Source: a virus. From it: 64,000 nt of DNA. Shown here in pieces: positions 38,289 through 64,000 of the stretch. How positions within the stretch are numbered: position 1 is the stretch's first letter; each line of letters begins with the position of its first letter. The notes under the pieces were generated by a model. That model saw only the letters and a program-made list of their open reading frames with translations, had not been told where the DNA came from and did not search any database. The stretch covers positions 1-64,000 of IMG/VR virus record IMGVR_UViG_3300027833_001310, one strand, 5' to 3'. The position numbers and the translations under genes were made by a program.

Positions 38289-39920
38289 ATGGCAAACTTT
38301 ATCATATCACTAGACTCGTCAACTCACGCAAATGCAGGGGCTGCCGAACTAGCAATTACAAACGCAGGATTAGCAATAACTAAAACTTATTCTTTTCCTT
38401 TAACATATGGCGTATCAGGAACAACTAGTCAAGTCGGAGCACTTGCAGGTGTGTCTGAATACGCAGAAAATGGCACAGCATTAACCAGTACGTTAGATGC
38501 ATTCACTGAGGCAAGCGCCGACCATGAAGACGGCCATTTAGATACTACAGCAATTAACCCGAACTACCAGTACTTTTGGCATCCATTGGATACTACACTA
38601 GGTGCAGGACAAACTATTTACTTAATAGATACAGGTTTCTCAGGTGCTCACCAAGAGTTTGGCGAAGATCCAGATGTAAGCAACTTGCATAGTGCTCCTA
38701 ATGCAACTGGATTTGACGACACTGACGGTCACGGATCTAAGATGGCAGGAATTATATTAGGTAGTGCTATTGGTTGTGCATCAGGTGCAAGTATACAAAA
38801 CGTTAAGATGTTTAACGACAATACTACAGAATTTACAGCAGCCGATGTTGTAGATGCACTAGAGGCAATTTTAGTACACCATACAGCAAACGATGCTAGT
38901 GTAGCAAAGATTGTATTAATGGCATGGTCCATGACTAAGAACGCATTGATTGATGCTAAACTTAACCAAATGTTAGCAGCAAACTTAATGGTAATTGCTT
39001 CAGCTGGTAACGCAGGTAACGGTGTAGACGTTGATACAATTACACCCGGTGGTTTAGATACTATTACAACTGTTGGCGCACATGACCATGTATTTGAAGT
39101 TACAACATTCAGTCAGATGCCAATAATTGATTACGTTGACGATGACGTAACTCCATTCAGAAGAGGCTTAGTACAAAACGCAGCAAAGGTTGATATCTTT
39201 GCAGTAGGTAAAGACGTATGCACAATTGATCCAGATAACGTTGCAAATTACATACCTTCAAGTGGTACTTCGGTATCAGCAGCAATGGTAGCAGGTATTG
39301 CTACACATTACATGAACTTGTATGCAAGTACATCTGCAGAAACTATTAAATCATATATGGTAACACGTGGTAACGAAATGGCACGTTTACCGAGATCAAC
39401 ATCTACTGCTGAAGATTATCAAACTATTCTTAGTTACACAAACTTATCTTACCCTACAGGCAAGACTGCAGAATATAACAAAGTAAGTTTATCTTGTCTA
39501 TCATGTCCAATGACATCAGAAGTAGCATTTACTAGCATACCATCAGGTAGATTGTTAAACGTAGCACACGGTTCAACTACAACTGTTAACATTGGCTTAC
39601 ATGCAGATGTTACTGATGTTGCTGTATTGGACTTCAGTCCTTTATCACCGTGGATGGCTTTTGATGCCGCTACTGGTATTGTTACAATTACTGCAACAAC
39701 TGCTGCAGGATGTGCAGAAAGTTTAGCACCAGGTGTATATCACTTTGCTATTAAAGGTACAATGGCTACTAAAGTTTATGTTGAAGAATATTCAATTGGT
39801 GTATACGGTACTGCTGAATCAGAACTAACTGCATCTACAGAGTATTACTACGATGACGACGAAAGTGAATACGAAGAAGTAATTCAGTACTCTGCATCGA
39901 CACAAAACTTTATCAAATAA
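38289..39920 (+). CDS. Subtilisin-like serine protease (S8), virion-associated candidate
   Basis: 543 residues. Catalytic Asp in YLIDTGFSGAH (about 115-118), His in DTDGHGSKMAG (about 146-150), oxyanion Asn in ASAGNAGNGV and Ser in SSGTSVSAAMVAG (about 326-330). Residues 1-90 look like an I9-type pro-region, and residues about 390-543 form a beta-rich C-terminal domain. There is no signal peptide. Late promoter; flanked by PAAR and small late genes, so the protein is likely part of the tail or head. Whether it cuts phage or host proteins is unknown. Confidence 0.88.
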   Translation: MANFIISLDSSTHANAGAAELAITNAGLAITKTYSFPLTYGVSGTTSQVGALAGVSEYAENGTALTSTLDAFTEASADHEDGHLDTTAINPNYQYFWHPLDTTLGAGQTIYLIDTGFSGAHQEFGEDPDVSNLHSAPNATGFDDTDGHGSKMAGIILGSAIGCASGASIQNVKMFNDNTTEFTAADVVDALEAILVHHTANDASVAKIVLMAWSMTKNALIDAKLNQMLAANLMVIASAGNAGNGVDVDTITPGGLDTITTVGAHDHVFEVTTFSQMPIIDYVDDDVTPFRRGLVQNAAKVDIFAVGKDVCTIDPDNVANYIPSSGTSVSAAMVAGIATHYMNLYASTSAETIKSYMVTRGNEMARLPRSTSTAEDYQTILSYTNLSYPTGKTAEYNKVSLSCLSCPMTSEVAFTSIPSGRLLNVAHGSTTTVNIGLHADVTDVAVLDFSPLSPWMAFDAATGIVTITATTAAGCAESLAPGVYHFAIKGTMATKVYVEEYSIGVYGTAESELTASTEYYYDDDESEYEEVIQYSASTQNFIK

Positions 39921-49878: not shown

Positions 49879-50217
49879 TTACGCTATCTCCGAATTCATT
49901 GCAGTACTTGCTGCACCTTGAGCTAAATCAGATACAGTGTTTGCTGCTGCTTCATCATCACCTGTGCTTATTTCTGCAGGTAACTGATTTTTAGGTTTAA
50001 TTATATCTCTGTTTACACTACTAGCATGTCCGCTCTTATCAATTGCTGTAATAAGTTCGTCTGTTGTAGTAACATAGCCTTGCTTGGCTAATAATGATCT
50101 AAATTCTTCAGTAGGAATATCTTCTACACCCTTAGCTGCTACTTTTGTTAGCAAGTCTTGTATGGTTAGAATTAAGTCGGAAAAATATCCTTCTGATATT
50201 ACTTCTCTAATTAACAT
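49879..50217 (-). CDS. Packaged-protein candidate with ISE|G start
   Basis: 112 residues. It opens MLIREVISEGYFSD; ISE|G at residue 9 fits the T4 prohead-protease rule. Helical N-half (LILTIQDLLTKVAAKGVEDI), acidic Ala/Ser-rich tail. One base separates it from the 434-residue gene. Function unknown. Confidence 0.6.
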   Translation of the reverse strand: MLIREVISEGYFSDLILTIQDLLTKVAAKGVEDIPTEEFRSLLAKQGYVTTTDELITAIDKSGHASSVNRDIIKPKNQLPAEISTGDDEAAANTVSDLAQGAASTAMNSEIA

Positions 50218-50218
50218 T

Positions 50219-51523
50219 TTAGACCTCTACTGGGTTTCTACCTAACGGCTCTTCTTCTGGGCCTGCTGCGGCAGGTACGTTAACATCCATTGCCGGCTCT
50301 TCTAATCCTACTTCTGCTGGTGCTGCGCCTAAATCAGCAGTATCACCTAAACCCATATCATCTGAGTTTACAACACTGCCTGCACCAATTAAGCCGCCTA
50401 TAGCATTATCAATTCCTGCTTTAGCACCTTTAGATGCCTCAATGTATGTTGCTAATAAACCGTTAACGCTGTCTGCAAAAGTAGCTGCTGCTTGAGCACC
50501 CATTTCACCACGCATTTGATCTGCAATTGCTGGTATACTTTCGTTTGCCATACGTCCAATCTCTTCTACATGGTCTTGAATATCGTCTGCTAATGCTCTT
50601 ACTGCCATTACAACTTCTGCTTCTTCTACTGAAGTACCTTCAAGTTCTTCGTTAATCATGTCGTCTACTAGGCTGTCAAACATTGTGCCTTCGTTTTTCT
50701 TTTCGTCTTTTGTATCACCAGTGACATCGTATTCTTCGCCGTCTACTGTAAATTTCTTTTCGCCTTTTGCAATAGCATCTTTTCTAGCACCAGTAAATTT
50801 GTTTTGTTCTGCTACTTTAGCACCAAACATTTTAATACCGTTTCCAACTGCATCTTCTTCTAAACTGTTTAGGAAACCAACAACTGCATCTCTGCTTTTT
50901 TCTGTTACTTTAGCAAAAGATTCTAATTTCTCTTCAATTGCTTGTAGGCTTTCTGTACCTGATAATTCAACACCACACTCTTTAGCAAGTTCTCTAAGTA
51001 AAGAATCGTTAAGGTCTGTTTCTGGGATATACTCGCCTTCTTCTTCGATACTTTCATGTGTACCACCACATGATTCTACATAGCTTTTTGCTGCTGAAAG
51101 GATAATTGGCATAACGTGTTCGTCATCATATGCAAAACGTGAATCCATTCTATATTGATTCATGCACTCGCCACAAGCCTCATCCATTGTGTAGCCACTG
51201 TCCATTAAGTTACAAACACTTGCATTGATCATTTCTTTCATCTCACCATGTGCAGGTGATTCGGCATACATGCCTTCATTGATCATAGTTTGAACAACAT
51301 CTTTGATGCCTAAAAACTTTGCGTATTCTAGCTCTTGCTGGAACTTAGTGTTGACACTTTTAATTTTGTTAATGCTTGCATTAGCAGTTTCTAGTAAACT
51401 ATCTAGTTTTGCTTTCTTAGGAAATCCAGCAGTCTTTAGTGAGACTCCAAACTCTTCCTTTAGCATTTTGTTAACTTTAGCGATTTTCTTTACGCCTTTT
51501 TGATTGAATTCTTTTAAAAACAT
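50219..51523 (-). CDS. Scaffold/internal protein candidate, 434 residues
   Basis: Starts MFLKEFNQKGVKKIAKVNKM. Helical throughout, with several acidic segments and a disordered acidic/proline C-terminus (DVNVPAAAGPEEEPLGRNP). Possible (L/I)xE|(G/A) sites include INE|G near residue 93. A cysteine group CGECMNQY lies at about 119-126. Composition fits a head-core or packaged protein of T4-like phages, but no family is confirmed. Late promoter GATAAATA at 51561. Confidence 0.55.
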   Translation of the reverse strand: MFLKEFNQKGVKKIAKVNKMLKEEFGVSLKTAGFPKKAKLDSLLETANASINKIKSVNTKFQQELEYAKFLGIKDVVQTMINEGMYAESPAHGEMKEMINASVCNLMDSGYTMDEACGECMNQYRMDSRFAYDDEHVMPIILSAAKSYVESCGGTHESIEEEGEYIPETDLNDSLLRELAKECGVELSGTESLQAIEEKLESFAKVTEKSRDAVVGFLNSLEEDAVGNGIKMFGAKVAEQNKFTGARKDAIAKGEKKFTVDGEEYDVTGDTKDEKKNEGTMFDSLVDDMINEELEGTSVEEAEVVMAVRALADDIQDHVEEIGRMANESIPAIADQMRGEMGAQAAATFADSVNGLLATYIEASKGAKAGIDNAIGGLIGAGSVVNSDDMGLGDTADLGAAPAEVGLEEPAMDVNVPAAAGPEEEPLGRNPVEV

Positions 51524-53152: not shown

Positions 53153-53662
53153 TTAAATATTTTGCTGATGTCTAGACTTTTTAGGCTTGCCATAGCCTCC
53201 AGTTTGCAGAGTAGCCTCGGCATGCATTGCTGCCATGTGCTTTTTATATTTCTTAGTACCTTTTTTATGTGGGCTTTTACCTTCTCCCATGCTGATGCCA
53301 AAGTTGTTGTCTAGTAGATCTTCTATGTTAGTATCGTAGTCTACGACTTTAAAATTTTTGTCTATCAGTAATGCTACATTATCTTCGTAACCGTGATTCT
53401 CGCCACTAAGTATTTGATAACCATCTTCAATCTCTATAAGATCTTCTTGATATTCCCAAGCACTAATAATTTCTTCTTTTTTGCTTTGTGTAATTTCTGG
53501 GACTACTGCATTTTCATCAACTGCTTTCTTTTTCTTTTTCTTAGGAGTTGTATTAGCAAACACACTTGCATTAGGTCTTTTTTGCATGCCGCCTAGTGGA
53601 GCAGCAACTGTAGCAATACCACCTGCACTAGTTGTTTCTTGTATAATGTCATTAATCTTCAT
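53153..53662 (-). CDS. Packaged-protein candidate, Lys-rich
   Basis: 169 residues. MKINDIIQETTSAGG fits a capsid-targeting peptide (IQE|T, residue 9). A poly-Lys stretch (PKKKKKKA) at about 38-45 precedes an acidic beta domain (LIEIEDGYQILSGENHGYED), then a basic tail (KSPHKKGTKKYKKHMAAMHA). GGTAAATA sits 5 nt above the ATG. Likely DNA-associated inside the head (inference). Confidence 0.6.
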   Translation of the reverse strand: MKINDIIQETTSAGGIATVAAPLGGMQKRPNASVFANTTPKKKKKKAVDENAVVPEITQSKKEEIISAWEYQEDLIEIEDGYQILSGENHGYEDNVALLIDKNFKVVDYDTNIEDLLDNNFGISMGEGKSPHKKGTKKYKKHMAAMHAEATLQTGGYGKPKKSRHQQNI

Positions 53663-53683: not shown

Positions 53684-54220
53684 TTATGTTAGTCTAACGT
53701 TTACGATATCCCAGTTAATAATACGCCACATATTGTTTAAGTATTTGCCTTTGTCATGCTGGTAATCTAATGCCCAAGCATGTTCCCACCAGTCAACTAA
53801 CATTGCTATGTCATTTTTAACTTGGTGATTAACTATTGTTTTGATGTCGCCTGATGTACTCATGTATACCCAACCGCTACCTTGTATCTTCATTGCTACT
53901 TGTTCAAACTCTTCTTTGAATGCATTGTAGTTGCTATACTTGCTGTCTATTAGCTCTTTACTTGCACCAGTAGGGTTGTTACTGCCACTTGGTGCTTTTA
54001 GTTGTGGGAAGAATACATTGTGTAGGAATGCGCCTGCTTCCATAAACTGTGCATCGCCTTTGCCTTCGTTATATTTTGTAACGTATGCTTTTGCAAGTTT
54101 GCCATAATGAAAATTTATAGTGTCTTCGCTCATAACAGGATCAAGATCATTTTTACCGTAAGGTAACTTTTCTTGTACAAGTACTTTCTTTTCTTCTGTT
54201 AAAAATTCATTTAGTTTCAC
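53684..54220 (-). CDS. Fe/Mn superoxide dismutase with capsid-targeting-like N-terminus
   Basis: 178 residues. KLPYGKNDLDPVMSEDTINF, GSGWVYMSTSG and DWWEHAWALDYQHDKGKYL are SOD signatures; metal ligands H38, H67, D143 and H147 are all present, as is Tyr46. The His pair after the first ligand (KHH in E. coli) is KLA here, so second-sphere residues differ. The first 12 residues (MKLNEFLTEEKK) precede the SOD core and look like a prohead-targeting peptide with site LTE|E. SOD converts superoxide to peroxide and oxygen. It overlaps the next gene by 4 nt, all in the late block. Confidence 0.88.
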   Translation of the reverse strand: MKLNEFLTEEKKVLVQEKLPYGKNDLDPVMSEDTINFHYGKLAKAYVTKYNEGKGDAQFMEAGAFLHNVFFPQLKAPSGSNNPTGASKELIDSKYSNYNAFKEEFEQVAMKIQGSGWVYMSTSGDIKTIVNHQVKNDIAMLVDWWEHAWALDYQHDKGKYLNNMWRIINWDIVNVRLT

Positions 54221-54414
54221 TTCTTCTTCCCACCTTTCATATTAGCACACCATTGATACATTTTGCCTTTCTCGCCACTATACTTTTTAGCCTTTGCTTT
54301 CAAATCAGTAACTGAGCCTTTACAACTAGCACCTGCTTTCTTTACTCTGCCAGGTCTGCTTTTGCCTTTCTTTTTACCGTCAGTGAAATTTTCTGTAATT
54401 TCAACTATTTTCAT
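54217..54414 (-). CDS. Small Lys-rich packaged-protein candidate, 65 residues
   Basis: MKIVEITENFTDG start (ITE|N at residue 8) then a very basic run (KKKGKSRPGRVKKAGASCKG) and two cysteines near a C-terminal KMYQWCANMKGGKKK. The size and charge match T4 internal proteins IPI-III. It lies between the giant 1622-residue gene and the SOD gene with overlaps of 1 and 4 nt. Confidence 0.65.
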   Translation of the reverse strand: MKIVEITENFTDGKKKGKSRPGRVKKAGASCKGSVTDLKAKAKKYSGEKGKMYQWCANMKGGKKK

Positions 54415-57400
54415 TAGTTACTACTGTCTACAATTGATGTATTTGCAAATGGATTTTCATTTGTTGTTACAAGATAGTTTGTCTTTGCGTGTAGTCTTAA
54501 CCCGGAACCTTCTAAGTCTTTAACGTCTTGTATAAATGTAAACGTCTGCTTTTTAAGATCTAAGAAAAGTATTCCTTTAAGATTACCACCACCTCTTTTT
54601 GCTGCAAGATAGTTATTAACATTAGACTGTGCTATGGCTTGCATTGCACCGGTAATGTTATTTTGTGCTAAGTTTTGTGCTATCTGGTTGCCAGCATTAG
54701 GTATTTCTGTAAAGATATTTGAAATAATATCTGCTATTTCTTTTTCTGCTTCAGGTACTAACTTCAAGAAAGCTGCAACATGATTTTGTTGCATACCTGA
54801 TTTGACTCTTAACACTGCACCCTGTGCTTCTAGTTCTTTAAACTTCTCATCATACTTTGTAAAGAATGCTGTTACTTTAGACTTGTATGAATCTGATACA
54901 GTAACTTGTCTGTCATTAAATCTAGCAGAATTTTTTCTTGTTGTTTTTAATTCAATTGGTTGACCGTCAATCATTAAGTCACCTTTGCCATCGTCAGCAC
55001 CTGATGATGCTCCCATGCCGCCAATTCTCTGTGACAATACTGAAAGTGCAAACTCACCTGGGCCAATACCATACTGTACAACTTCATTTAAGTCGTTAAC
55101 TAATTCTGTTATGTGCTCGTTGCCTTCCATTCCGTAACCAACAAATATCTCAGACATAGTATCAGTAGATGTAGACAACAATGTATCAACTCTAACTAAT
55201 TTATCTCCCTTCCAATCTATGAAAAGTTTTGCTCTTTCTGCTGGCGTCATTTCTATACTTGCAATAATCTTTGCAATTTGTTTAATTGCTTTCTTAACAT
55301 CCTCATCAGGTACTTCACCTAATTGGCTGCTTAAACTTTGTATTTTACCACCTACGCCCATATCATCTAACAGTTGTTCAATGTAGTTAACTAATTTATT
55401 AGTTTTTTCATCATCTGGTAAGTCGGCTAATTTTTTGATCAGCTCTGATTTACTTTCAGTTATTCCTGCTTTCTTTTTAGTTTCTGGGTGTACTTTGTTT
55501 TGTACAAAACCTTTGAATATAGTACGCAAATCAGTGTCTGGTCCACCGCCACTAGCTGCTTCTCTGAATGCTCTGATCATACTAGGATCTGGTACTACAA
55601 AGTATGCTTCCATTTGCGATTTTAAATCACTAGCAAGTAAAGGAACATTTAATAACTGTTTTATTTTCTTTACAGGTGAGTTGTCTGGTACAGCACCTTC
55701 TGTATATTTTGCTGCTCTGCCTGATCCTGACTTGTTAGGATGTTCAAATCCTTTGCCTTTCTTTTTCTTTTTACCAGGCGTACCGTAAGTAGTTAATAAT
55801 GCAGCCATATCTTGTTCTGCTTCAATAGTTTCATTTAATTTTTTCTTAGATACTATTAGTGCTTCGTTTATCTTCGTAGCATCAACTTTACTAACTATTT
55901 CTAACTGTTTTTTAAATGGTAATTTGTTAAAATTCTCAAACATGTTATTACTCTCTTCTATATCACTAAATCTTATATTCATTTCTTGCGCCATGTATTC
56001 TCTTTCTGATGCATCAGTTTCTTGGTGTGTTCCTACTATGAATGGACTCTTTTCCCCTGCAAGGCTAAATGCGTCTGGATTGAAATCTCTATCTCTGTAA
56101 GGTAGGAAGCCATGCTTCTTGCTAAAAGTATCTATTTTTACTTTAGCATCTAATGTCTGTTCTTGATATCTTTCGGCTTTTTGTTTTCTATGAATTATTA
56201 AATCTTTTATTCTTTTTATCTTTTCATCTGTTTCGGTATCTTCGTTAGTTCTACTACTTCCCTGTGCATGTGCAGGGTGATCAGCATCTATTAGGTCTGT
56301 AGTATCAACCCCGCCTGCTTTGTATGCTGATACTATCGATGATACTTCATCCCACTGTACAGGATTGCCACCGTTTTCCTTGTTGTACACTAATGCATTT
56401 AGAACATCTTGTTTTGCATTATTACTTGTTTCTAAGTTGTTAATCCATCTTGCTAGTTTTACAGCATTAACTCTTGGATCAGCCATGAAGTGACCGAATC
56501 CAGTGAACCACATTTTTTTATAGAGAGGAAAATCATTTTCCGCCATCTCAATTGCTGCTTGATTACTAAAAGTAGATGGGTCATTATCTGACGCATCTGA
56601 GGTACCTGTTGTGCCTAGTTGCTCTAATTCTTTTTCATAGTCGGCAACCATTTTAAGTTCGCCTTGAGCATCAATCATTCCTTCATTGTAATCATATAAT
56701 GCTCTGTATACTTCATTATGTTCATCGCGACTAATAGCTTTAAAATCTTCTGCTTTAAACTTTTTACCCGGAGGTGTCTTTATTGGAGCTCCTGATATAA
56801 GTTTGTTACCCATTTCTGTTTGGAGCCAATTGTAGTATGGTACTGGTAAAAACAATGCATCGGTGCCGTTGTACTTAACAGTAAATTCTGGTGTTGGTGC
56901 TTTTGCTACCTTAACTTTGAATGCGTTATTAAACGCATCAGCAAACTTTGTCATGTTATCGTGGTAAGGTGACCCACCAATATTTAACATAGGTACATAT
57001 TGTTTACTTGCTAAAAATTCTTTATAAAGAGATTCTGGTGTGAATCCAAAATCTTTCATTGCTTGTCTAAAGCCTGCTACTTGTTGCACTTTAACAGGAT
57101 TACGATTTTTCCCTGTTGCTATAGAACTTAGTAGATAACCAAAAGCAGTAAGACTGTAATCACGAGCACGATCATTCCAACTCTCTTCTTCTTTGATAAT
57201 ACTTTCTTCTGCGTTCTCTCTTTTAGATCTTGCAAGTGCATTGTATGCTGTAGCAAGAGCGTCTATAGCGTCGGTGTAATGATTTTTGCCCACCACACTT
57301 TTAAATGCATCTACTACTTTCTTATCAGTATTATCTGGGTCAATTCTACTAGATGCTCTTTCTTCTTGGTCTGGATCAATCGCATCTAAACTATTAACGA

Positions 57401-59282
57401 AACGGAATAATGCTTTAATATAATCTTTTCTAAAAGCCTCTTTATCGTGTCCTGCTCTCATAACTGCTGCATATCGTATTGTTGTTTTAGCAACGGTGTC
57501 AAAGTCCATGTGGTACCCGTCACCACCTGCTATACGAAATTCAATCAAGCCATTGCCATCATCATTTGTTGCATCTTTAAAATTAATACTGGTAAACTTA
57601 CCAGCACTAATACCGCCTTTGAGCATATCTTCTAAAGCTGAAAGGGTTTTTTCGTCTTTGTAATTAGCACCTACATTTTGCATGTATTGTTGTATTTCTT
57701 TTACTTGCGACTTAGTATAACTGTTACCATCTCTGTTAAACTGTTGTAACAAATATTTGTCACCAAGTAATAATGCAATCTTTAATTTGTTAGGTGCTTC
57801 TTGATTGCCCGCCATACTCATTGTAACATGTAGTCCAGTAGATCTATTTGTATCTACATTTCTATCACTCCAATGTGAAAATAAACTTTTCATTTCGGCA
57901 AGCATTTCTGTTGGGGTGTCGTACACTGGTGAAATAATTTCAGCACCCATTCCGTCACCTTCGATACTGCTGTCGTCTTCTACTCGCCAGTAATCGTTGT
58001 CAACTTGTTGACCACTGTGGTAATCTCCTGCTTCAACGTTGTCTGATTTACTTGAGTTACTTGCCCAGTCACGAAGCTGATCTGCAACTTCTTCCATGCT
58101 ACCTTGACTGTTGCTGTAAAGATATATGTCCATCTCACTTAGCAACGATCCCCAGTTGCCGTTGTATTCTTCACTACACCAATCATCTTCGTCGACATTG
58201 CTTAATGCTCGATCCCATGCTTCGTCCCACTGCTCGCCATTGTCTCTGATATCATCTGCTAACCATTCTAAAAAGTGATCTTCGCGTTCGGCATCAACAT
58301 ATTCTCTGGCCCATGCATCTTCTTCCCAGTCACTTCGTTCTTCTATTTCTTCCTGTGCTTGACGATCATCTTGATCTTCTAAACCCTGTAGTATCATTTC
58401 TTTGTAGTTTGTTACATCATCCATGTCAACTTCGTATGAAACATAATTATCTAAATAGTCAGGATCTTCTTTGCGTTCGTCTACTAGTTCATTTATTACT
58501 TCACTTTCGTAATCATAAAACTTATCAGACTCTTGTAGCCATTCTCTAAATGCTTCATTTACTTGGTCAACACTTCTAGAGCCTTCTTGATCATATATTA
58601 AGTCTTGTACTCCAGACCAGTTTTCACCATATAGAAAGTCCTCATCATCGTCGCCCGATGAAAAGCCTTCCCATATTGTTTCTGCTTCAAAACCACATCT
58701 AATGTTTGCGTTTAATGAATCTTTTGCAACTGTAGGACTATTGAAATTTATTTCAAATATTGGATCACCTTGTTGTATATATTTTTGTGCTCTGATTAAT
58801 CTTTTGATTTTACTTTTAATTTTTTGCTTACGCTTTTGTCCTTTGTGAAGATCTGATCTTTCTGTTACTGCTTCTTCACCTGGTAATGTAATATCATCTT
58901 CAGGATCTAATGTATAAAATTCTTTGTTCTTTTGATTTTGTACAACAACTGCATCTTTGTTTAGGCCGTTGTTTACAGGGCTCATTACTTTAACTGTATT
59001 GCCTTTGTCGTCTTGGTATTCGAAGTCTTGTGCTAACTCTTTTGCTTTTGATATAATTGGCTCAACTGGTTCTGGTTGTTCAGCGTCTGTTTTATTTTGC
59101 TGACTGCTAGGACTAACTTGTGGTTTATTAACACTGGACTTTGGCGGCTTAGGTGTCTTAGTGGCTGCTGTTGCTTTAGCAGTTGCACCAGTCTGTTGTT
59201 GTGATGAGGGAGTGCTTACTCCGCTATTCATTCCATACTCAGAGATCAGTGATTTGATTGTGCGAATATCTTTTGCCTTCAT
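54414..59282 (-). CDS. Giant packaged-protein candidate: amidoligase plus PD-(D/E)XK nuclease
   Basis: 1622 residues. The start MKAKDIRTIKSLISEYGMNS fits a targeting peptide (ISE|Y, residue 15). An acidic linker (210-430) interrupts a COOH-NH2 ligase-type amidoligase domain: IRCGFEAET (194-202), VEDDSSIEGDGMGAEIISP (434-452), STGLHVTMSM (481-490) and LIEFRIAGGDGYH (579-591). Amidoligases link amino acids by ATP use. Long helical modules follow, with further candidate sites such as INEA. A nuclease domain closes it: GKGDLMIDGQPIELKTTRK with Asp1435, Glu1444 and Lys1446. Other region functions are unknown. It is the largest gene in the window and shares late transcription with SOD. Confidence 0.78.
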   Translation of the reverse strand: MKAKDIRTIKSLISEYGMNSGVSTPSSQQQTGATAKATAATKTPKPPKSSVNKPQVSPSSQQNKTDAEQPEPVEPIISKAKELAQDFEYQDDKGNTVKVMSPVNNGLNKDAVVVQNQKNKEFYTLDPEDDITLPGEEAVTERSDLHKGQKRKQKIKSKIKRLIRAQKYIQQGDPIFEINFNSPTVAKDSLNANIRCGFEAETIWEGFSSGDDDEDFLYGENWSGVQDLIYDQEGSRSVDQVNEAFREWLQESDKFYDYESEVINELVDERKEDPDYLDNYVSYEVDMDDVTNYKEMILQGLEDQDDRQAQEEIEERSDWEEDAWAREYVDAEREDHFLEWLADDIRDNGEQWDEAWDRALSNVDEDDWCSEEYNGNWGSLLSEMDIYLYSNSQGSMEEVADQLRDWASNSSKSDNVEAGDYHSGQQVDNDYWRVEDDSSIEGDGMGAEIISPVYDTPTEMLAEMKSLFSHWSDRNVDTNRSTGLHVTMSMAGNQEAPNKLKIALLLGDKYLLQQFNRDGNSYTKSQVKEIQQYMQNVGANYKDEKTLSALEDMLKGGISAGKFTSINFKDATNDDGNGLIEFRIAGGDGYHMDFDTVAKTTIRYAAVMRAGHDKEAFRKDYIKALFRFVNSLDAIDPDQEERASSRIDPDNTDKKVVDAFKSVVGKNHYTDAIDALATAYNALARSKRENAEESIIKEEESWNDRARDYSLTAFGYLLSSIATGKNRNPVKVQQVAGFRQAMKDFGFTPESLYKEFLASKQYVPMLNIGGSPYHDNMTKFADAFNNAFKVKVAKAPTPEFTVKYNGTDALFLPVPYYNWLQTEMGNKLISGAPIKTPPGKKFKAEDFKAISRDEHNEVYRALYDYNEGMIDAQGELKMVADYEKELEQLGTTGTSDASDNDPSTFSNQAAIEMAENDFPLYKKMWFTGFGHFMADPRVNAVKLARWINNLETSNNAKQDVLNALVYNKENGGNPVQWDEVSSIVSAYKAGGVDTTDLIDADHPAHAQGSSRTNEDTETDEKIKRIKDLIIHRKQKAERYQEQTLDAKVKIDTFSKKHGFLPYRDRDFNPDAFSLAGEKSPFIVGTHQETDASEREYMAQEMNIRFSDIEESNNMFENFNKLPFKKQLEIVSKVDATKINEALIVSKKKLNETIEAEQDMAALLTTYGTPGKKKKKGKGFEHPNKSGSGRAAKYTEGAVPDNSPVKKIKQLLNVPLLASDLKSQMEAYFVVPDPSMIRAFREAASGGGPDTDLRTIFKGFVQNKVHPETKKKAGITESKSELIKKLADLPDDEKTNKLVNYIEQLLDDMGVGGKIQSLSSQLGEVPDEDVKKAIKQIAKIIASIEMTPAERAKLFIDWKGDKLVRVDTLLSTSTDTMSEIFVGYGMEGNEHITELVNDLNEVVQYGIGPGEFALSVLSQRIGGMGASSGADDGKGDLMIDGQPIELKTTRKNSARFNDRQVTVSDSYKSKVTAFFTKYDEKFKELEAQGAVLRVKSGMQQNHVAAFLKLVPEAEKEIADIISNIFTEIPNAGNQIAQNLAQNNITGAMQAIAQSNVNNYLAAKRGGGNLKGILFLDLKKQTFTFIQDVKDLEGSGLRLHAKTNYLVTTNENPFANTSIVDSSN

Positions 59283-59292
59283 AACTTGTCAA

Positions 59293-59574
59293 TTACCGCT
59301 TGTTAAGTGTTTTTAATCGCTTTGCTACTGGATTAAATCTTTTTGTTCTACGAGCTTTACGAATCATTCTTTTGCCCATTTTTGCTTTTGTTCTTCTCAA
59401 TGTCATACGCTTTTTGAGATCTATGGGTTTCGAACATTGGCTTGAATTTTTTACAACTCTGCCTGCTCTAGGACCACTAGTACAACGAACAGCACGTTTA
59501 ATTGTGTTGCCCATTCGGCGCCAAACCATACGAGCTTCGACTATTTCACCGCCTGTTACTTCATCAAGTTTCAT
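59293..59574 (-). CDS. Highly basic packaged-protein candidate, 93 residues
   Basis: MKLDEVTGGEIVEARMVWRR: IVE|A at residue 13 fits the prohead-protease rule. The rest is Arg/Lys-rich (AKMGKRMIRKARRTKRFNPV), with two cysteines. Strong DNA-binding character, like T4 internal proteins. Overlaps the upstream gene by 4 nt and leads directly to the giant gene. Confidence 0.65.
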   Translation of the reverse strand: MKLDEVTGGEIVEARMVWRRMGNTIKRAVRCTSGPRAGRVVKNSSQCSKPIDLKKRMTLRRTKAKMGKRMIRKARRTKRFNPVAKRLKTLNKR

Positions 59575-60247: not shown

Positions 60248-60255
60248 TATTTATC
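60248..60255 (-). promoter_or_regulatory. T4-type late promoter (GATAAATA)
   Basis: Before the 134-residue gene; AGGAG ribosome site between. Confidence 0.7.
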
Positions 60256-61103: not shown

Positions 61104-61649
61104 TTATGATTTTTTAACTCTAAAAGTATCAGAATTTTTAAAGTTAGACCTTGCTTTTGCCAATCCACTACCGATTGCTTTTCTTAAACTTGATCGATCG
61201 GTGCCGGCAAGAGGATTAAATTTTGAATTTTTAAAAGAGCCATCACCTTTATAAGCATTTTTATTGCCTATTTGTCCACCTACAGTTCCTGTTGGCGTTG
61301 GCGTAGCATCCGGCTTTTCCATGCCCTTTGCAATTTTCTGCTGTAAGGTATCTTCCGGCTCTTTTACTTTATCGGCCGTTGCAACTGCTTTGGCCTGATC
61401 TTTTGTCATGCCACTGTATTTTACTTGAAAGTCTGGATATCTTTGTTTGACAGCACCCTTTATTGACATGCCAGCTGTCCACAAAGGTCTTTTGTAATAG
61501 CCTACTGCTAGTGCAACAACACTTGCTCTGTCTAACATTATAAATTGAGGCAGTTTCGGATTGCCGTATTCGTCATCAAATTCCTGTCCTAATTCCTGTC
61601 TTAGCTCAGCATCGTTATTTTCTAGTATAATAATTTCGTCTATTCTCAT
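61104..61649 (-). CDS. Packaged-protein candidate, 181 residues
   Basis: MRIDEIIILENNDAELRQEL fits a targeting peptide (ILE|N, residue 10). The middle has a helical WTAGMSIKGAVKQRYPDFQV segment. The C-terminal third is Lys/Ser/Asn-rich (FKNSKFNPLAGTDRSSLRKA), DNA-binding-like. GATAAATA (61655-61662) is 5 nt from the ATG. Confidence 0.6.
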   Translation of the reverse strand: MRIDEIIILENNDAELRQELGQEFDDEYGNPKLPQFIMLDRASVVALAVGYYKRPLWTAGMSIKGAVKQRYPDFQVKYSGMTKDQAKAVATADKVKEPEDTLQQKIAKGMEKPDATPTPTGTVGGQIGNKNAYKGDGSFKNSKFNPLAGTDRSSLRKAIGSGLAKARSNFKNSDTFRVKKS

Positions 61650-62209: not shown

Positions 62210-63010
62210 TTATTTCTTCTTTCTACCAGCTGCCCAATAGCCTGCAATTGCACCTATACCTGTGCCTGCTTTTTTAAGTGTACCAGGTTTATTTTTAGCA
62301 AGTTTTGTTAGTTTCTTAGCGGCATATCTTCCTGCAACTGCACCAAGTGCTGCTCCACCAACTTTTTTTGCAAAACTAGTTCTAGGTACATCATATGCTG
62401 GCTCTGACGTAAATGATCTATACTTGACCATAGATGTCATTGGAGCTAAAAGTTCACTGCCTCTTCCTAAGTAACGCATTGTTTGTAATAGTTTAGTCAC
62501 TACTAACTGTCTACTTGAAAATTTTAAGTTACCCCAGTCGGTAATATATCTACGGTATTGTTTAAATTTAGAATCTGTAACCTTAAGTTGTGACTCTAGT
62601 CTAAAGAAGTAACCTACTGCTTCATTTTTTCTATCTGAACCATTTGCTATCTTCTTCATAAACATAAAGTGCTTACGACTATCAAAGTTTAATCCCTTAA
62701 GGAAAGAAACACTAGACATTCTGTTCTTTAATTGTATTTTATCATTCTTAGGTTGATTTATCATATATGCTAATAGATATAAATCAGTTGCACTTGTTCT
62801 AAAAGTATTGTAGCCACCGTACTGGGTAGTTTGCTTTGCATAGTTACTTGCATATCCATGCTGTATATCATCTTGTACCATTAAATAAAGTGCAATAGTA
62901 TTGAGATACAGTAAGTCAGCAACGTTTCTGCCAGTGAGTTGACCCATGTTACCAGAAGATCTATACAATCTACTTTCTGATATTTCTTGATCTATAAATT
63001 CTAATTCCAT
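62210..63010 (-). CDS. T4-like structural/packaged-protein candidate, 266 residues
   Basis: MELEFIDQEISESRLYRSSG: ISE|S at residue 12 fits the prohead-protease rule. The LTGRNVADLLYLNTIALYLM helix and long Tyr/Arg-rich helices follow, ending in an Ala/Gly-rich KKVGGAALGAVAGRYAAKKL tail. The start overlaps the next gene by 1 nt. Present in marine T4-like genomes as far as I recall; function unknown. Confidence 0.6.
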   Translation of the reverse strand: MELEFIDQEISESRLYRSSGNMGQLTGRNVADLLYLNTIALYLMVQDDIQHGYASNYAKQTTQYGGYNTFRTSATDLYLLAYMINQPKNDKIQLKNRMSSVSFLKGLNFDSRKHFMFMKKIANGSDRKNEAVGYFFRLESQLKVTDSKFKQYRRYITDWGNLKFSSRQLVVTKLLQTMRYLGRGSELLAPMTSMVKYRSFTSEPAYDVPRTSFAKKVGGAALGAVAGRYAAKKLTKLAKNKPGTLKKAGTGIGAIAGYWAAGRKKK

Positions 63011-64000
63011 TATCCTGTTGGCTTCCCTGTTCCAAAGTTTAATCTACTGAATTCCATTCTGTCAACTAGTTTGAGAGCATTACCAATTCGGTCAATAGCA
63101 ACAAAGCCTTCACCACTTGTGGCTTTAAATCCTTCACCATCTGCGGCAAACGTTTGTGTACTTTGTAATTTTCCTAACTTTGCTATGATTACAAGTTTTG
63201 CTTTAATAAGCATCAAGTATAAATCATACACTGCTGTAATTTCAGCAGCATGTTGTTTAATGAATGCTACAGTCTTAACCATACTATCTGTTTTAGCATC
63301 TTTAGTTTTTTGCATTTTAACTTTATCAATTTCTTTTGTAGACCTGTCGATCCATTTTACAACAAATTCTTTTGCTAAACTTTCAGGGGAGCCAAAGTCT
63401 CCTGCTCTAATCTTATTGTTTACTGTGGCTTTTAGTTGTTGTAAGAAATCTTTACCTACTAAGTCGTTGCCTTTCTCTAACCAATTAAACACATCTTTAC
63501 TAATTTGCTTAGTGTAAGTGTCGGCGGCTTTGATAGTTGCTAATACTTCTGCTGATTCTTCAGCAGTCATTGTTACTGTACCTGATACATCTTTGATGTT
63601 TGCATCAGTTTGCCAAACACTAGATGTACTACCTAATCTAGTTGAATCAAATCCAAATGATGCTGTTGTATCTGCTAGTGTTGGTCCGCCTGCATACTCT
63701 GTATGCCACACTATACCTAGATCAGCACTTAGCATTTGCTGTGCTAGTTCACTGTCCTTTGGTAAAGCATAAGCAAGAGTATTAGGCTTAAAATATATTA
63801 AGGCTTCTCCATCATGATTCATTTCTTTGATGTCGCCTTTTTGAAACATCATGTCGCCTTGTGCAACTGTGTCCCAATTCAATTTGCTTAAATGTTTTAA
63901 ACAATTTTTTAATTTGATTCGTAAACCACTGCCGTCTTTGTCACCTTTGTCTGCGTGATAGTTGTCAATGTCTTGGTCAGTAAAGTTTAGTTTTGCTTTT
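63010..64000 (-). CDS. DUF6267-like phage protein, N-terminus beyond the window
   Basis: The coding frame continues without stop to base 64000 (KAKLNFTDQDIDNYHADKGD is read just inside the edge), so the apparent ATG-like codon at 63882 (TTG) is internal. About 330 residues are seen. The motifs GLRIKLKNCL, VAQGDMMFQKGDI, IYFKPNTLAYALPKDSELA and LGIVWHTEYAGG resemble the DUF6267-type family of marine T4-like phages. A nucleotidyltransferase/ligase-like core has been suggested by such motifs but I cannot confirm it. The 5' end is missing. Confidence 0.65.
   Translation of the reverse strand, partial: KAKLNFTDQDIDNYHADKGDKDGSGLRIKLKNCLKHLSKLNWDTVAQGDMMFQKGDIKEMNHDGEALIYFKPNTLAYALPKDSELAQQMLSADLGIVWHTEYAGGPTLADTTASFGFDSTRLGSTSSVWQTDANIKDVSGTVTMTAEESAEVLATIKAADTYTKQISKDVFNWLEKGNDLVGKDFLQQLKATVNNKIRAGDFGSPESLAKEFVVKWIDRSTKEIDKVKMQKTKDAKTDSMVKTVAFIKQHAAEITAVYDLYLMLIKAKLVIIAKLGKLQSTQTFAADGEGFKATSGEGFVAIDRIGNALKLVDRMEFSRLNFGTGKPTG

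Follow-up and report, generated by a model that had tools for sequence, protein, structure and literature searches.

In phage T4, Alt and the internal proteins reach the core by means of a capsid-targeting sequence (CTS), a propeptide of 10-20 residues that the protease removes (PMC5694885). The internal proteins of T-even phages are a diverse set with the CTS as their sole common part, and one of them, IPI, is injected and blocks a restriction enzyme (PMC3012670). The chlorovirus PBCV-1 packages a Cu/Zn superoxide dismutase (SOD), and superoxide on infection is below that seen with a relative lacking SOD (PMC7019647). Here we describe a late operon in the first 64,000 nucleotides (the window) of the 92,052-base IMG/VR virus record IMGVR_UViG_3300027833_001310, a fragment of a T4-like jumbo phage, in which an Fe/Mn SOD, a large amidoligase-nuclease-like protein and basic proteins begin with short leaders ending in (L/I)xE. 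Sequence comparison suggests, with a probability of roughly 0.78, that these leaders are T4-type CTSs on enzymatic cargo.

The likeness to T4 IPI-IPIII and Alt, whose CTS is cut by gp21, lies in the short N-terminal (L/I)xE leader, late expression, variable cargo and the basic proteins, and in the presence of gp23 and an S77 protease alongside them (here, in relatives). Unlike in T4, the cargo would be an SOD and an amidoligase-nuclease, and the leader core is MK(I/L)x(D/E)(I/V/F) with a predicted cleavage. With PBCV-1 the locus shares a late-expressed viral SOD, found in the particle in PBCV-1 and predicted to be there in the phage (PMC7019647). PBCV-1 is an algal virus with a Cu/Zn enzyme, whereas the tailed phages considered here have both Fe/Mn and Cu/Zn SODs. 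We know of no CTS-type leader on the PBCV-1 SOD.

The late operon and its superoxide dismutase

The five leader-bearing open reading frames proposed in the initial annotation are all present on the minus strand, at the places and with the starts it gave. The genes for the 134-, 83-, 93-, 1622- and 65-amino-acid proteins and SOD run in the same direction and abut or overlap by a few bases; the last four lie in one late operon, which the gene for a 169-amino-acid protein adjoins. Of 114 genes, 27 have TAAATA in the 45 nt before them, compared with a background of 2.2%. The closest long relative found is G001 (339,794 bases), with 86% SOD identity to the window. The main features are as follows.

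60248-60255, minus strand: T4-type late promoter core GATAAATA, preceding the operon whose last gene is that for SOD
59293-59574, minus strand: 93-amino-acid Lys/Arg-rich protein, leader MKLDEVTGGEIVE (xE end kept in relatives)
54414-59282, minus strand: 1622-amino-acid protein with leader, amidoligase-like region and PD-(D/E)xK-like nuclease region (two alignments of relatives)
59238-59282, minus strand: leader of the 1622-amino-acid protein, MKAKDIRTIKSLISE (xE ends in relatives)
57405-58697, minus strand: amidoligase-like region, residues about 196-626 of the same protein (Pfam in relatives, invariant motifs)
54945-55055, minus strand: PD-(D/E)xK-like motif E1410, D1435, E1444-x-K1446 (invariant in 10/10 homologues)
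54217-54414, minus strand: 65-amino-acid basic protein, leader MKIVEITE (92% identity to the G001 copy)
53684-54220, minus strand: Fe/Mn SOD, 178 amino acids, leader MKLNEFLTE, GTG start (Pfam)
54194-54220, minus strand: leader of the SOD (residues 1-9), with cleavage predicted after E9 ([LIV]xE in SOD extensions)

The SOD matches Pfam Sod_Fe_C (5.5e-21) and Sod_Fe_N (4.9e-9), both above their cut-offs (75 and 37 bits versus 20.9 and 27); a PHROGs search returned nothing for it. The four metal ligands H38, H67, D143 and H147 are intact and, together with the leader residue E9, are invariant in 9/9 aligned sequences. Solved cellular SODs align only from query residue 17-18, about their own residue 5-7, which indicates that the phage leader is an addition. 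Leaders at the locus are 8-15 residues long and stand on otherwise complete proteins, the SOD domain being whole after residue 17.

An alignment-based scan for relatives of this SOD returned at least 545 viral stretches, of which 80 were kept, and near-duplicate extensions were collapsed to 39 before counting. An [LIV]xE site precedes the enzyme domain in 37 of these 39 non-redundant N-terminal extensions, compared with 14.9 +/- 2.9 (maximum 24) in 2000 residue shuffles, a null that leaves shared ancestry in place. One of the two misses has an FVE site and the other has its start set too far upstream. Examples, with the predicted cut marked by a slash, are MRATEFLTE/SKEKL, MRDLLTIIE/AVETK, MKDIKTYINLIE/VADKQ and MELRDHINLVE/ASTRPAK. 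The residue after the cut (P1') is mainly A or S. For a few sequences the start codon was assigned by a simple rule, and a few rows have a first xE other than the one closest to the domain. The (L/I)xE end is conserved while the surrounding residues diverge, and this conservation across SOD lineages is, at the level of sequence, independent support for the leaders.

A second, unrelated SOD fold has the same kind of site. In the relatives L024, L025 and L026, the SOD slot directly after the same large gene holds a 683-695-amino-acid protein with a Cu/Zn SOD domain (PF00080, 6e-44 to 2.5e-43). These proteins start MKINDLITE/SGL, MRIKDFVNE/SGF and MKLNEIEIYKG, the last without a clear xE end.

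L024:2869-4947, L025:1898-3982, L026:16123-18171, L113:553-1932 and L114:8013-8555: Cu/Zn SOD domains in phage proteins

A scan with the L114 Cu/Zn SOD found 97 viral relatives, most of which have an M[KR] start and, after it, a conserved CPRTKAxxCxCE stretch. All 16 non-redundant phage Cu/Zn SODs have [LIV]xE after this stretch and just ahead of the SOD domain (shuffles: mean 6.8, maximum 12). With the same kind of processing site on two non-homologous SODs, a shared destination is hard to avoid. In many related viruses a leader of this type is retained on one or other of two unrelated kinds of SOD.

Predicted protease sites and virion proteins

The gp21-like (S77) protease that the initial annotation had looked to elsewhere in the genome gave no match within the 92-kb fragment and was found, together with gp23 capsid genes, in G001 as well as in PA5oct and phage 2.275.O. 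Both genes are also present in 5 of 16 further long SOD-bearing contigs, which include both SOD types. The SOD-bearing G010 (342,865 bases), without a gp23 or S77 match, may have an incomplete or diverged head.

Alignment to the cut position of T4 gp23 places an LxE at the predicted propeptide site of the capsid protein in each of the eight relatives with a readable capsid N-terminus (HLQE, FLVE, MLRE, YLAE, YLKE, SLQE, YLSE and QLME). The (L/I)xE end of the leaders matches this site. We found no cleavage data for these phages, which would suit a signal that the prohead protease leaves uncut and that directs the proteins elsewhere, for example to a host factor or a scaffold-independent compartment. 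However, leader and capsid sites match within one phage, the leader genes are grouped with head genes, and T4 provides a precedent. We give this explanation very little weight.

Pseudomonas phage PA5oct (Arenbergviridae), whose late region is largely collinear with that of the window phage in inverted order, has a list of virion proteins detected by electrospray ionisation tandem mass spectrometry (ESI-MS/MS). Its SOD, EST35_0261, is 36-37% identical to that of the window and has the N-terminus MNDSIKKYISIAE/AASS (YISIAE/AAS), with an IAE/A end; it differs in being annotated as hypothetical and in lying in a ClpS/S21 cluster. It is flagged in the ESI-MS/MS list, as are the homologues of the window 112- and 434-amino-acid proteins, the latter being 156341 (MFLKDVKITE). 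With the terms tried, no paper was found in which an SOD encoded by a phage is described as cargo of the virion.

The leaders stand, but the motif first used to describe them is too loose by itself. Coded as M[KR]x(2-12)[LI]xE, it also fits 13 of 106 internal M[KR] sites in proteins of PA5oct, and the detected proteins of that phage show no enrichment for it (5/88 versus 6/159 others, p=0.35); it was therefore rejected as a genome-wide predictor of cargo. A narrower definition of the core, M[KR][ILMFV]x[DE][IVLF], is strongly N-terminal: in the window phage it fits 5 of 26 M[KR] starts and 0 of 69 internal sites, and in G001 7 of 72 starts and 1 of 207 internal sites. In PA5oct it marks 6/88 detected versus 1/159 other proteins (p=0.009), which is not an independent test because the core was defined after the PA5oct list had been seen. 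The Rak2-like phage CBB, with a published mass spectrometry table, yielded no usable leader matches and hence no test of the core.

Several observations weigh against capsid targeting. The missing S77 match in the 92-kb fragment is one, and no S77 or gp23 match was obtained in the other 11 of the 16 long contigs with SOD, among them one of 343 kb. The shared ancestry that the shuffle tests for both SOD types retain is another. The 2.275.O SOD has no leader, the leader class was not seen in CBB, and in L113, L114 and most Cu/Zn SODs the leader is longer and different. Some relatives, L018 among them, have the large gene without SOD. The PA5oct list also holds the likely non-structural ribonucleotide reductase, thymidylate synthase and FtsH, which makes its flags suggestive and not proof. 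These soluble enzymes, the lack of enrichment of the loose motif and the position of the leaderless 2.275.O gene among translation and topoisomerase genes would be expected if SOD were an ordinary late metabolic enzyme, its extension a chance amphipathic helix and its detection in virions contamination. We consider this improbable, given the near-universal [LI]xE in diverged SOD extensions, its recurrence on an unrelated SOD fold and its identity with the capsid propeptide site.

The large protein and neighbouring genes

Relatives of the 1622-amino-acid protein have 1457-2199 amino acids, and leader ends in the family read LISE/YGM, LLME/YGM, LITE/YGM, LINE/YGM and LKE/YATP. The protein had been described at first as an amidoligase-nuclease; an amidoligase-like region and a nuclease motif were both found, and sequence evidence makes the two assignments moderate, not firm. 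Pfam Amidoligase_2 (PF12224) matches 4 of 9 aligned relatives (best 9.6e-6) and gave no profile match to the window protein itself, for which a PHROGs search also returned nothing. Invariant motifs of the region are GFEAET, VExDxSI, AE(I/L)ISPV, STGxHVTMS and LIEFR. A structural model of it (predicted local distance difference test, pLDDT, 73) had no Foldseek match at 1e-3; glutamine synthetases, PafA and YbdK recur among the weak top matches. The PD-(D/E)xK signature residues are kept in all 10 aligned homologues, and the AlphaFold2 model of the nuclease part (pLDDT 51) is too weak to confirm the fold. Relatives differ in the C-terminal part, which has been swapped or has diverged strongly (about 30% versus 66% identity). 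Across 54414-59282 of the window and L006, L009, L011, L016, L018, L020, L026 and L027, the large protein is a mosaic, with a common leader and amidoligase-like region and a varying C-terminal nuclease module, which recalls polymorphic effectors.

Agrobacterium phage Atu_ph07 has a homologue of the amidoligase region (AUZ94978, 501 amino acids, about 27-29% identity) with the leader-like start MRWQDISSKKLTE, adjoining portal and prohead core genes; the nuclease part was not found in that protein. No homologue of the amidoligase-nuclease was found in PA5oct.

Fusions elsewhere connect SOD with the modules of its window neighbours. L012 has an Fe/Mn SOD inside a 1097-amino-acid protein that starts MKLQTLLE/ANV and reads FIVE/AKE at the SOD junction; behind the SOD is a KSPHKKGT(E/K)KYKKHMAAMHA module, the same as that of the 169-amino-acid neighbour in the window. 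L113 has a protein that joins a Cu/Zn SOD to a ParB-like region and a basic module, SPGRVKRAGASCKGS, whose window counterpart is the separate 65-amino-acid gene (SPGRVKKAGASCKGS..KMYQWCANMK). Through these fusions, genes that stand apart in the window are tied together as partners. The L012 fusion (L012:6058-9348) also has a weak PcfJ match, and its LYHATFTKNVPNILNKGL stretch resembles ADP-ribosyltransferase folds by eye.

For the 93-amino-acid protein, the relatives L004, L009, L011, L016 and L026 retain an xE end with [AN]RMVWR after it, and similarity of the 169-amino-acid protein to G001 is restricted to the first 35 residues (60% identity). Other leader-type starts nearby are on proteins of 112, 181, 266 (MELEFIDQEISE) and 429 amino acids, and further away on proteins of 231 (MKLLNEYITE) and 274 (MNIFDITE) amino acids. 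The features neighbouring the operon are as follows.

49879-50217, minus strand: 112-amino-acid leader protein, MLIREVISE (homologue of PA5oct 157529, MKIKDILVE, flagged by mass spectrometry)
50219-51523, minus strand: 434-amino-acid head protein, start MFLKEFNQ (PHROG head and packaging, 2.8e-11)
53153-53662, minus strand: 169-amino-acid neighbour, leader MKINDIIQE, C-terminal KSPHKKGTKKYKKHMAAMHA module (G001 comparison, L012 fusion)
61104-61649, minus strand: 181-amino-acid leader protein, MRIDEIIILE (leader core; relatives MKISDIILE and MKINEIILLE)
63010-64000, gene continuing to 64299 of the 92-kb record, minus strand: DUF6267 protein, 429 amino acids, leader MRFIEISKPLVTRVINE (PF19782, 1.3e-98)

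The DUF6267 protein has the leader core in relatives, and as its leader in those seen is of the same kind, the DUF6267 family (PF19782) may also be capsid cargo. Elsewhere in the late region there is a subtilase (Peptidase_S8, E=5.9e-22; 38289-39920, plus strand). Two further genes of the 92-kb record were read by eye, one at 80471-82084, minus strand (L002:1472-3085), as a TonB-receptor-like outer membrane protein with a homologue in G001, and one at 71887-73566, minus strand (L001:8888-10567), as a lipoprotein-like 559-amino-acid protein.

Probable capsid loading and possible injection

Taking together the T4 CTS, the T-even internal proteins and the packaged SOD of PBCV-1, we infer that the leader-bearing proteins are probably loaded into the capsid, with the balance for their injection about even. 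Late in infection, the SOD, the amidoligase-nuclease and the basic proteins would be made, each with a leader of 8-15 residues ending in (L/I)xE. The leader would dock the protein to the prohead scaffold core, and a gp21-like S77 protease would cut after the E, so that the enzymes would be intact when packed with the DNA. At infection the cargo would enter the host along with the genome. There SOD would lower superoxide near the incoming DNA, while the large protein, like Alt and the internal proteins of T4, would act on targets in the host.

Head loading may instead serve assembly and DNA protection in the free virion with no injection, SOD shielding the packaged DNA, for example in sunlit water. 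The basic modules beside and fused to SOD suggest contact with DNA, and the gp67-position core genes of PA5oct and 2.275.O share the leader class, both of which favour such a role. However, T4 internal proteins with the same leader type are injected (PMC3012670), superoxide itself is a weak DNA oxidant, and an amidoligase requires ATP and substrates unexpected in a capsid. We judge a purely protective role unlikely, if one to be taken seriously. The fuller proposal, which we put forward tentatively and at somewhat short of even odds, is that hundreds of tailed phages carry SOD in the head, in two unrelated folds that both have a protease-cut leader, and that the lineage described here co-injects an amidoligase-nuclease, to blunt a superoxide response and remodel the host during the first minutes after phage entry.

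If this is true, the phage virion delivers ready-made redox enzymes to its host, and superoxide would be a real hazard, either to packaged genomes or when a phage enters its host. Capsid cargo of uncultured jumbo phages could also be sought from sequence by the leader rule, in which a phage's own (L/I)xE propeptide site, present at N-termini and kept across diverged relatives, would predict which unknown genes encode packaged proteins.

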